Source: Syntrophobacteraceae bacterium
Lineage (GTDB): Bacteria > Desulfobacterota > Syntrophobacteria > Syntrophobacterales > Syntrophobacteraceae
DNA: 45,769 bases
Assembly (NCBI GenBank): GCA_013314815.1
Contig: JABUEY010000013.1
Location: forward strand, 1-45,769
Direction of reading: 5' to 3'
Shown: positions 9,026 through 26,906 of the stretch, piece after piece
How the letters are laid out: every line of letters starts with the position of its first letter
Numbering within the stretch: position 1 is the stretch's first letter
Translations under genes and position numbers: made by a program
The notes under the pieces: model-generated
What the model was told of the DNA's origin: nothing
The model's input: the letters and a program-made list of their open reading frames with translations, nothing else
Databases searched by the model: none

Positions 9026-10588
9026 ATGGAAAAGAACATTGGCAGACTGGAATTAAAGGTACTCTATGAGATCAGCCGCATCATAGGAAAGGCTCTCCAC
9101 CTGGACCAGGCTCTTGAAGCCGTTTTGGAGATCCTTTCCGATTCCCTGGAGATGAAACGGGCCACGGTTACACTGAAGGACGAGGAAACCGGAGACCTGG
9201 TCATACGCGCGTCTCACAACCTGACTCCTCAAGAAAAGAAACGGGGTATTTACCGTCGGGACGAAGGGGTGACAGGGCTCATTTTCAGGACAGCGAAGCC
9301 CTTCGTAGTCCCGGATATCAGTCGCGAACCGCTGTTCTTGAACAAGACCGGTGCCCGGCCCATCGAGAAGGGCCGCATTTCCTTCCTGGGAGTCCCGGTC
9401 GTACTGCACGGTTCCGCCATCGGCGTCCTCAGTGTAGACCGCCTTTTCGGCAATGAAATATCCTTTGAGGAGGATATCCGCTTCCTTTCCATCGTCGCCA
9501 CCCTCATCGCGCAGTTCGTGAGCCTCAATCGCCAGGTGAAGGCTCGCGAGGAACAGCTTCGAAGGGAAAACCTGTCTCTGAGGGCGGAGATATCGGCCCG
9601 AACCAGGCATTTCTTCATGGTGGGTAAGAGTCTTGCCATGATGGAAGTGCAGCGGTTGATCATGAAGGTGGCTTCCAGCAAGGCATCGGTGCTCCTCCTC
9701 GGCGAATCGGGAACAGGCAAGACCCTCGTTGCCCGCATCATTCACGAACTGAGCAACAGGGCCGGGCGCCCTTTCGTAAAAGTCAACTGTGCCTCCCTCC
9801 CCGAAAACCTGCTCGAATCCGAATGGTTCGGATATGAAAAGGGAGCGTTCACCGGGGCTGTGAAGTCCAGGCCCGGGCGGTTCGAGGAAGCGGAAGGAGG
9901 TACGATCTTCCTTGACGAAGTCGGCGAACTGACGCCGTCTCTGCAGGCGAAACTGCTTCGGTTCCTTCAGGAGCGCGAGTTCGAGCGTCTTGGCAGCAAC
10001 AGGACCCGTAAAGTTGACGCACGCATCGTTGCCGCGACAAACCGGGACCTCATGGAAGCCGTAAGCAAGGGAACGTTCCGGGAAGATCTATTTTACAGGC
10101 TCAACGTCTTCCCCATCCAGGTACCCCCTCTGAGAGAAAGGATCGAGGATATCCCCGCGCTGGTCAATTATTTCCTCGACAGGACAACCAGGGAATACGG
10201 TCGAAAACGGAACCTCACATCAAGGGCTATGGATGCGCTTGTAAAATATGAATGGCCGGGCAACGTCAGGGAAATGGAAAACCTGATCGAACGCGCCGTC
10301 CTCATCACGGATGATGCCGAAATCGATCTTGCACATATCGAAGCCTGTTTTCAGCAGAGCGCGAACAGGATCATGCCCGAGGACCAGGCTTGTCTGTCGA
10401 GGCTCGAAGAGATGGAAAAGCGGGAAGTGGTGGCGGCACTGGAAAGAAACCGGTGGGTCCAGTCTCAAACCGCAAGAGAACTCGGGCTCACTCTCAGGCA
10501 GGTCGGGTATCGCATAAAAAAATTCGGGCTGGACAGGCTGGTTGAAGAACGTCGAAGCAGACGACTTTCCATCGGGAAGAAAAAGTGA
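9026..10588 (+). CDS. nifA: NifA-type sigma-54-dependent activator (GAF-AAA+-HTH)
   Basis: This is a bacterial enhancer-binding protein that opens sigma-54 promoters. Its position directly after nifB makes it the likely nif activator. With ATG 9026 it has 520 residues: a GAF domain (about 20-165), a short coiled linker, a AAA+ domain with Walker A GESGTGKT at 226-233, the GAFTGA sigma-54 contact loop at 273-278 and Walker B TIFLDE at 293-298, then a Fis-type HTH near 478-505 ([18 protein letters not shown]). The clustered cysteines of the oxygen-sensing NifA linker are not evident. The frame is open upstream to 8948 and no strong ribosome site marks the start, so the N-terminus is uncertain by up to 26 residues. 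Confidence 0.88.
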
Positions 10589-25010: not shown

Positions 25011-25112
25011 GGGCTGAGATGGGGTATTATTCCGTCGCGGCATTCCGATCGTTTTTTCAAGAGGATGCAGTTGGATAAAGAATTGAATGATCTTTCCCAG
25101 GGAGGCGTTGAA

Positions 25113-26189
25113 ATGGACATCAAGGTGCAGCCCGCGGATCCTTCCAGGCGGCGTCCCAAGCCGACGGATGAGAGCAAGCTGGTTTTCGGCAGAATGTTCA
25201 GCGATCACATGTTCATCATGGACTACCGGTCCGGCGAAGGGTGGCGGGAGGCCAGAATCGTTCCCTACCATGCTCTGCAGATGGATCCAGCCGCGATGGT
25301 CCTCCATTACGGGCAGGGGATATTCGAAGGGCTCAAGGCATACAGGTGGAAGGACGGCAAGATCCGCCTGTTCAGGCCCCGTAAGAACTGGGAGCGTTTC
25401 AACAGGTCGGCGGCCAGGATGTGCATGCCCCAGGTCGATGTGGACTTTCAGTTCAAGGTCGTCGAGACTCTTCTTGCCCTCGATCACGAATGGGTGCCTC
25501 ACAGCGTCGGGTCCTCTCTTTACATCCGTCCCACCATGATCGCGAGTGAACCTCACTTGGGAGTCCGCCCGGCCAATGAATACCTGTACTACGTCATCAC
25601 CGGACCCGTGGCCGCCTATTATGCGGAAGGATTCAATCCCATAAGGATCTATGTCTCGAACGAATTTGTCCGGGCGGTGCGGGGAGGTGTGGGCGAGGCG
25701 AAAACGATGGCCAACTACGCGTCCAGCCTGTTTGCCGCCGAAATGGCCAAGAAGAAGGGCTTTACCCAGGTGCTGTGGCTGGATGGCATAGAACGCCGCT
25801 TTGTGGAAGAAGTGGGCACCATGAACATCTTCTTCCGCATCAAGGACGAACTGATCACTCCCCCTCTCACCGGATCCATCCTGCCGGGGGTCACGAGAGA
25901 CTCCGTCATCGAACTGGCCGGGCATTGGGGTATAAAAGTGAGCGAACGTCCCATCACCATCGACGAAGTCATCGACGCCATTCAGACGGGCGCCATGATG
26001 GAGATCTTCGGCACCGGCACAGCCGCGGTTATTTCCCCCGTGGGAGAGATCTCCTACCTGGACAGGTTCTACAAGGTTCAGGACGGTGGAGTGGGAGAAT
26101 GGTCCAGAAAGCTCTATGATGAAATCGTGGGTATTCAATACGGGGAGAAGGAAGATCCTTTCGGGTGGATATACCCTGTTGAGATTTAG
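25113..26189 (+). CDS. ilvE: Branched-chain amino acid aminotransferase
   Basis: This PLP enzyme interconverts leucine, isoleucine or valine and their 2-oxo acids. The 358-residue length and the sequence are typical of the longer (group II, eukaryote-like) branched-chain aminotransferases. Visible features are LHYGQGIFEGLKAYRW near the N-terminus, the PLP lysine K197 in GGVGEAKTMANYASSL, WLDGIERRFVEEVGTMNIFF, and GSILPGVTRDSVIELA, followed by EIFGTGTAAVISPVG. I chose ATG 25113 because GGGAGG precedes it; the frame is open to 25065. It lies opposite the Liv transporter operon, so uptake and conversion of branched-chain amino acids are adjacent. In a syntroph it may serve biosynthesis or breakdown. 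Confidence 0.95.
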   Translation: MDIKVQPADPSRRRPKPTDESKLVFGRMFSDHMFIMDYRSGEGWREARIVPYHALQMDPAAMVLHYGQGIFEGLKAYRWKDGKIRLFRPRKNWERFNRSAARMCMPQVDVDFQFKVVETLLALDHEWVPHSVGSSLYIRPTMIASEPHLGVRPANEYLYYVITGPVAAYYAEGFNPIRIYVSNEFVRAVRGGVGEAKTMANYASSLFAAEMAKKKGFTQVLWLDGIERRFVEEVGTMNIFFRIKDELITPPLTGSILPGVTRDSVIELAGHWGIKVSERPITIDEVIDAIQTGAMMEIFGTGTAAVISPVGEISYLDRFYKVQDGGVGEWSRKLYDEIVGIQYGEKEDPFGWIYPVEI

Positions 26190-26280
26190 CCCGCTCCTGC
26201 ATGTGAGGGCGGATTATGGTCGTGCATGAGTGTCCGTCGGGGAGGCTCTCTGTGCCGGAAAGCGTTCAACCTGGAGAGGA

Positions 26281-26309
26281 TTGATCTTCGTTTTCGGAAT
26301 GATTATAAA
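26281..26309 (+). promoter_or_regulatory. Sigma-70-like promoter inside the ilvE 3' region
   Basis: TTGATC (26281-26286, 4/6) and TATAAA (26304-26309, 5/6) with an exact 17-bp spacer sit about 90 bp after the ilvE stop and point at a strong terminator, with no reading frame between. Confidence 0.6.
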
Positions 26310-26314
26310 ATAGC

Positions 26315-26400
26315 CAAGGTCGACAATATGTCGCCTTCTCCTAACCCCCTCAAGCTCCGTTTGGTTACCCCCTCCGACCGAACGGAGCTTTTCGGTTTTT
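26315..26400 (+). ncRNA. Candidate small RNA with two C-rich anti-Shine-Dalgarno stretches
   Basis: The predicted transcript of about 85 nt runs from the promoter at 26281-26309 to the terminator. It would fold into a first hairpin (AAGG-U-CGAC / GUCG-CCUU, 26325-26347 approximately), a single-stranded part, and a 13-bp terminator hairpin. The octamer ACCCCCTC occurs twice, once between the hairpins (26344-26351) and once in the terminator loop (26367-26374), so both copies would be unpaired and could bind GAGGGGGU-type ribosome sites. C-rich loops of this kind are known in alphaproteobacterial CcsR-type sRNAs. It could also be a processed ilvE 3' UTR. It is not similar to any RNA family I can name. 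Confidence 0.5.
26352..26400 (+). terminator. Strong Rho-independent terminator after ilvE / candidate sRNA
   Basis: A 13-bp stem (26352-26364 with 26378-26390, one G-U pair) closes a 13-nt loop and is followed by TTCGGTTTTT. On the - strand there is no T-run, so it works for + strand transcripts only. Confidence 0.88.
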
Positions 26401-26414
26401 GACGTGTGCCGGAC

Positions 26415-26906
26415 TCATTCGTGGGGCGGCTCCTCCCGGCGTGCTTCCCCGTCTTCAGAAAGAAAGCGGTTCAAAGCGTTTTCCCAGTGTTTCATGAACT
26501 CGACAAAGTATTCCTCCGAGTAGTTCTCGACGAACTCTTTCCCTTCCTCGCTCACCGCCGTGTACATGTAGGTTACGGCGGCGTCAGTGGATTGATCCGC
26601 ATTTTCGGTAAGTGAGATGGTGATCCGGGCGACGGTCATGCCGGGAGTATACCTGGTGATGACCAGCCTGTACCGGTCAGGGTCGTAGCCGGTAATGACC
26701 CAGATGGATTCGGCGTCGTCTTGGCCCGTCAGGAATACGCAGTCGAGTTCGGCCTTTCCTGTGGCGGTAATGACGACCAGCGGGTCCCAGCCTTCCACCC
26801 ATTCCGTTTCCCTTACCGGGCAAAGCAGAGGGAAGACGACATCGGGGCGGGCACAAAGCCTTTGGGTATATGTTCTTTCGACTCTTACGGGTGCAACCAC
26901 TTTCAT
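26415..26906 (-). CDS. SRPBCC (START-like) domain protein
   Basis: The 163-residue protein looks like a member of the SRPBCC / polyketide-cyclase-like superfamily, small helix-grip proteins that bind hydrophobic ligands. Supporting features are the start with RVERTYTQRLCARPDVVFPLLCPVRETEWVEGWDP, a pattern usual for these proteins, alternating beta strands through the middle, and a long C-terminal helix (EYFVEFMKHWENALNRFL). There is no signal peptide or membrane span. It follows serA after 59 bp on the same strand and is the last gene of the liv-serA block. The ligand and role cannot be read from the sequence. Confidence 0.7.
   Translation of the reverse strand: MKVVAPVRVERTYTQRLCARPDVVFPLLCPVRETEWVEGWDPLVVITATGKAELDCVFLTGQDDAESIWVITGYDPDRYRLVITRYTPGMTVARITISLTENADQSTDAAVTYMYTAVSEEGKEFVENYSEEYFVEFMKHWENALNRFLSEDGEARREEPPHE

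Follow-up and report, generated by a model that had tools for sequence, protein, structure and literature searches.

A candidate anti-Shine-Dalgarno small RNA gene of the Syntrophobacterales with C-rich motifs in its linker and terminator loop

In Desulfobacterota that live by syntrophy or sulfate reduction, small RNA (sRNA) regulation is, to our knowledge, poorly understood. The 3' end of 16S rRNA carries CCUCC, the CcsR RNAs have C-rich loops, and 6C is reportedly the subject of a study by Mai from 2019. In Sinorhizobium and other Rhizobiales, NfeR1/alpha-r14 repeats an identical anti-Shine-Dalgarno (aSD) motif in unpaired regions while its stems vary, and it is Hfq-independent with redundant seeds (PMC10746234, PMC3927594). 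Work on 6C/B11, from mycobacteria and actinobacteria, describes two C-rich loops, either of which is sufficient to repress the tested target, whose site is a G6 tract, and an action of B11 in bacteria without an identified Hfq or ProQ (PMC10470900). CcsR1-4 of Rhodobacter sphaeroides are described as four homologues that are cotranscribed with ccaF1, released from its 3' UTR through RNase E processing, and interact with Hfq (PMC8307010). For the order studied here, a search of full-text literature, whose coverage leaves out most subscription journals, returned no recognised description of an RNA like the one reported below, and the available text of a computational ncRNA survey of Oleidesulfovibrio alaskensis makes no mention of Syntrophobacter, Shine-Dalgarno or C-rich (PMC11124144).

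The window, that is, the whole stretch of 45,769 nucleotides that was analysed, corresponds to a 45.8-kb contig from a draft genome that totals 4.06 Mb. The ORF list places a 374-aa ORF of the ilvE-type branched-chain aminotransferase at positions 25065 to 26189 on the plus strand, upstream of and outside the RNA gene; "ilvE" is a putative name carried over from the initial annotation. The promoter proposed in that annotation, TTGATC and TATAAA with a 17-bp spacer, was confirmed by reading the sequence, with the -35 box at 26281-26286 and the -10 box at 26304-26309 on the plus strand; a strict sigma-70 scan, in which a -10 box has to end in T, had missed it. Among relatives, the column consensus of the -35 box is TTGAAT, and the aligned TTA columns of the -10 box are 83-97% conserved. 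The candidate sRNA gene of about 85 nt (26316-26400, plus strand) is supported by the match to a covariance model, R1, and has 29 further homologues; its 5' end is placed from the -10 box and its 3' end from the T-run. It begins with a 5' hairpin, AGGTCGAC..GTCGCCT, of seven pairs and one bulge (26317-26336), which overlaps an ultraconserved core, GTCGCCTTCTCCTAACCCCCTC (26330-26351). The 3' part of this core is the first C-rich seed, with an octamer at 26344-26351. There follows an intrinsic terminator hairpin with a 15-bp stem (26352-26390), recovered by both the hairpin scan and the fold, whose 9-nt loop, ACCCCCTCC (26367-26375), is the second C-rich seed, and then a T-rich termination tail (26391-26400). 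Beyond it lies a convergent ORF of 163 aa on the minus strand (26415-26906, from the ORF list).

The segment 26311-26402 folds at -34.5 kcal/mol (z = -5.3), and none of 200 shuffles was as good. The initial annotation had the octamer twice in the RNA, unpaired each time. Two copies of ACCCCCTC are indeed present, at 26344 and 26367, and the second is fully unpaired (0.99-1.0), but the first is only partly open in the window copy (0.43-1.0), since base pairing is possible between AACC and the tail's GGTT. The octamer occurs four times on the plus strand of the window, the others being at 10123 and 27189, and not at all on the minus strand over the whole window. The description of the terminator as the strongest of the window was roughly right, in that it ranks second among 33 terminator-like hairpins, with only 11 of its 15 pairs counted by the script. 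C-rich loops are not a common habit of terminators in these genomes. The 670 kb of fetched sequence contain 581 terminator-like hairpins. A CCTCC loop is present in 42, of which 41 proved, when the list was sorted by reading, to lie at model matches. Given that the fetched sequence is centred on model matches, the fair base rate is that of the other hairpins, of which only one in about 540 has a CCTCC loop.

A BLAST search with a 130-nt query over 97 genomes, the window's own included, found clear homologues in three families of the order (E down to 5.6e-19) and none of note outside it, where E was 0.038 or worse. We aligned 30 loci, the window among them, leaving out five short chance matches of its own genome. 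The flanks are random, with a mean pairwise identity of 0.30 in the 30 nt 5' of the -35 box and 0.29 downstream. Between them, the -35 box has an identity of 0.73, the promoter spacer 0.36 and the 5' hairpin 0.61; the core GTCGCCTTCTCCTAACCCC stands at 0.94 across the three families, and the two terminator arms at 0.66 and 0.69. A promoter score of at least 8 of 12, taking the best per locus, was obtained at 21 of 30 loci and in 22 of 232 control stretches. CCCCTCC is present in the terminator loop of all 30 aligned loci, with an identity of 1.00, and CCCCT in the linker of 27. The terminator stem has 96.9% of its cells paired, and 11 of its 13 modelled pairs have changed on both sides in compensation. 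Thus, as far as the aligned sequences go, constraint falls on the loop rather than on the stem. The initial annotation had named as contrary evidence a conserved terminator without conserved C-rich loops and promoter; the opposite was seen, with conservation of the promoter and of the two C-rich elements and variation in the stem. In the 5' hairpin 91.4% of cells are paired over the 30 sequences, with one-sided changes only, and the five members of one family (f3) appear, from the alignment, to use a shifted register there. None of 500 shuffles reached the observed paired percentage or covariation score, although related sequences can exceed shuffles, as the tool itself warns.

Could the RNA simply be the end of the ilvE transcript, with a fortuitous promoter and an RNA that is read-through or a processed 3' UTR? 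An IlvE homologue does lie directly upstream on the same strand at 22 of the 30 loci (21 of 29 relatives and the window), as that explanation would have it. At one further locus the contig ends before the position can be read, and at the other seven, namely all five f3 genomes and two from the window's family (f1), no IlvE match was found within the fetched 7-12 kb. Given that the promoter boxes stand out as conserved from flanks that are not, that promoter and RNA are both retained at these seven loci elsewhere in the genome, and that a plain terminator has no need of an invariant 7-nt loop, we consider a mere ilvE 3' UTR or terminator very unlikely. Since the RNA is intact where ilvE is not its neighbour, it is an independent sRNA gene; and since the 163-aa ORF and/or a SerA-like ORF lies beyond it in the opposite direction in 13 of 29 relatives and in the window, it is neither the tail of ilvE nor the leader of a downstream gene.

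The statement that the region holds no reading frame was not literally correct, as a 58-aa ORF (26226-26402) spans it. That ORF begins upstream of the promoter, and in the alignment indels between relatives disrupt any frame. A small protein read through the core (ATG TCG CCT TCT and onwards) might be suggested by the ATG that 13 of 30 loci have just 5' of the core. However, the other 17 have no ATG there, the linker and loop vary in length by 1-2 nt between relatives, which breaks the frame, and the changes that have been accepted are stem compensations; we rejected peptide coding as exceedingly improbable. The locus has the attributes of a trans-acting sRNA gene, with its own promoter, an intrinsic terminator, a conserved structure and no conserved ORF. 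Conservation supports a stand-alone sRNA gene in which a putative sigma-70-type promoter would direct an RNA of about 85 nt ending at its own terminator.

The covariance model R1 matched, over its full length, 30 of the 39 genomes examined from the order, which belong to three families, at E 3e-12 or better (best 1.7e-25, the scored copies having also built the model). The window copy, itself one of the 30 used for building, matches at 26309-26399 with 90.5 bits and E 2.6e-22. By family, R1 is found in 18 of 26 genomes of f1, seven of eight of f2 and all five of f3, at about one copy per genome, and it was not found by the model in nine of the 39. The best sub-threshold matches of the window's own genome (L143 and L149; E 0.035 and 0.098) were rejected as copies, being without a T-tailed terminator and C-rich loop, and a weak extra match in G027 (E 0.0015) shows no C-rich loop. 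Outside the order, a 395-genome sample of the phylum gave no strong match and weak ones in 22 genomes (E 2.5e-6 to 0.01). Within the class, one further weak match outside the order, in G048 (E 5.5e-5), has a terminator loop without CCTCC. Some of the weak phylum-wide matches resemble the layout (L077, L079, L081, L072, and three in tandem in L080), though we do not claim that any of them is homologous; the rest are simple terminators or DNA of other kinds. In L080 (G325:C8) the three tandem units of hairpin, C-rich stretch and terminator stand at 1272-1355, 1501-1583 and 1625-1711, next to an ORF that, by reading, resembles a small membrane protein of filamentous phages. Another candidate C-loop RNA, with terminator loop ACCCCCCCTCC, was observed at L069:1501-1587 and L073:1501-1584, in two genomes of the same genus (G227 and G420). 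An exact 19-mer of the core occurs in 18 stretches of an 84,980-species collection, all assigned to the order and labelled Syntrophobacterales, Syntrophobacteraceae, Desulfacinum, Desulfosoma, Desulforhabdus or Desulfoferrobacter, or as MAGs tagged Deltaproteobacteria or Desulfarculales. The named species with the exact core are Desulfacinum hydrothermale, D. infernum, Desulforhabdus sp. TSK and Desulfoferrobacter suflitae.

Two R1-bearing genomes have a second, weaker R1 match, and this led to a second C-rich family. A model built from two of its copies (R2) matched 29 of the 39 genomes at E 0.1 or better, among them all 26 f1 genomes at E 5.3e-9 or better, eight of which have no R1. The R2 matches in three non-f1 genomes are weak, and in two of these a match overlaps the R1 locus. 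A refined model (R3), run on the 395-genome sample, found six genomes, all f1, and two doubtful distant matches. Relatives were collected in L155-L180, L184 and L190-L197, often with more than one match per genome, and 20 loci of the family gave no gathering-level match in Rfam. The window's own genome has a strong copy (G000:C245:42272-42367; L170:1501-1596) and a weaker match (G000:C53:5865-5994). In the best copies the hairpin is GGAAAGA..TCTTTCC and the linker reads TCCTCC, with CCCCTCC or CCTCCTCC in the loop of the terminator. In 35 aligned copies, 11 of 12 terminator stem pairs are doubly changed, at least two CCTCC are present in 33, and TTGAC stands exactly 8 nt before TANNNT in 28, a spacing too short for a standard -35 box; this conserved TTGAC-N8-TANNNT points to an activator site or to a sigma factor of an unusual type. 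Compared with the window RNA, the second family has the same layout with other stems and another promoter, and is without the 22-nt core. The weaker match of the own genome (also L209:3066-3195) may, with L204:3091-3218 and L206:3014-3135, represent a third type, with a TATAAT-like box, a long internal region, the linker CTTTCTCCTG or similar, and a terminator loop with CCCCCCTCC.

The hallmark of the anti-Shine-Dalgarno class, a CU-rich unpaired motif complementary to the Shine-Dalgarno sequence, is present in the window RNA as the CCCCUCC loop and as UCUCC and CCCCUC in the linker. Two patches are predicted to be single-stranded, the linker's UCUCCUAACCCCYUC and the CCCCUCC of the terminator loop, and each resembles the anti-Shine-Dalgarno core that the ribosome itself carries. 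The reading of the RNA as anti-Shine-Dalgarno, made in the initial annotation, is supported, and we infer the function itself from sequence. We believe that the RNA is probably a stand-alone, trans-acting and chaperone-independent anti-Shine-Dalgarno sRNA whose two C-rich seeds mask Shine-Dalgarno sites. In this model, the C-rich patches would pair with G-rich Shine-Dalgarno sites (of the GGAGGGG type) of several mRNAs, seed pairing would block 30S binding and so switch the target mRNAs off, and the two seeds would be interchangeable, each backing up the other. Neither Hfq nor ProQ would be needed, since neither was found in the order: the Hfq profile (PF17209), which detected its control in E. 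coli and four others, gave no match above the cut-off in the 39 genomes and one partial sub-threshold match in G037, and ProQ (PF04352), whose control was detected in E. coli, gave none in the 39. The KH_KhpA-B profile (PF13083), which counts KhpA, KhpB and other KH proteins together, has 3-7 matches in each of the 39 genomes. KhpA-type RNA-binding proteins have possibly multiplied in these genomes, which yielded no Hfq and no ProQ.

Some observations speak against this model: the first octamer is half paired in the fold of the window copy, nine of the 39 genomes lack R1, and the stretch of some 22 nt over which the core is conserved exceeds what a simple CCUCC mimic requires. A core of this length could accommodate either a protein partner or longer pairing. 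One dedicated mRNA target, making the RNA a one-to-one regulator rather than a broad masker of Shine-Dalgarno sites, would explain a core with an identity this high across three families. We looked for GGGGTTAGGAG, an 11-nt complement in one register, without mismatches and 3-12 nt before ATG only; this search, which is not exhaustive, found it in five of the 39 genomes, and one of these five was simply the antisense strand of the RNA gene. As the reversed control pattern gave 11 matches, there is no long conserved target in that register, and with no recurrent complement before ATG we regard a dedicated target as very unlikely. The same negative result, the ubiquity of KH_KhpA-B proteins and a core kept more strictly than short seed pairing requires are all consistent with a protein decoy, in which the C-rich patches would bind an RNA-binding protein (candidates are KH proteins such as KhpA/KhpB, cold-shock proteins and Rho) that the RNA would sequester. 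Yet the invariant loop contains the aSD core CCUCC and not just any C-run, and the second family keeps CCUCC without the 22-nt core, a better fit to Shine-Dalgarno pairing, so that we hold a decoy to be unlikely. Masking of Shine-Dalgarno sites by the two seeds remains the reading that we prefer. More tentatively, riboregulation in the Syntrophobacterales might comprise several separate sRNA families of one layout (a 5' hairpin, a C-rich linker and a terminator with an aSD-mimic loop) with multiple KhpA/KhpB-type KH partners; the window RNA would then be the most widespread member, and the second family, with its TTGAC-N8-TANNNT promoter, would be universal in f1.

An RNA gene found order-wide, including in named species, is now defined with a covariance model. 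In an order where no Hfq or ProQ was detected, it is a natural system in which to ask how targets are selected by short C-rich seeds when there is no matchmaker, and it raises the question of whether terminator loops commonly house C-rich seeds.

Among the 4227 families of Rfam 15, which presumably include the 6C model, none matched at gathering level, either in the window or among 20 loci that bear R1 or were candidates for it, and we took sub-threshold matches in the region (XIST_intron, a group II intron and Hrs13; E 1.9-4) as chance, the families being unrelated. Our best reading is that the window RNA represents a new, uncatalogued family of anti-Shine-Dalgarno-type sRNA that would act in the manner of NfeR1/alpha-r14 or mycobacterial 6C/B11 and, as far as tested, is a member of neither. 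The precedent named in the initial annotation, CcsR, shares the C-rich loops but not the 3' UTR processing or the Hfq binding; with its own conserved promoter, about one R1 copy per genome and no Hfq found in the order, the window RNA does not belong to CcsR, and the other two systems are closer. Like 6C/B11, it has two C-rich seeds and occurs where neither Hfq nor ProQ was detected, whereas the 6C/B11 seeds both lie in hairpin loops and differ in sequence, and the window RNA has no Rfam match. Like alpha-r14/NfeR1, it has repeated unpaired aSD motifs (30 of 30 loci in the loop, 27 of 30 in the linker) and freely changing stems (11 of 13 pairs). The hosts of alpha-r14/NfeR1 belong to another phylum, and alpha-r14 is 123 nt long with three hairpins that each carry CCUCCUCCC. 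In contrast, the window RNA, at about 85 nt and with two hairpins, carries its seeds in two settings, the linker and the terminator loop, and combines CCCCUCC with an extra conserved block, GUCGCCUUCUCCUAA.
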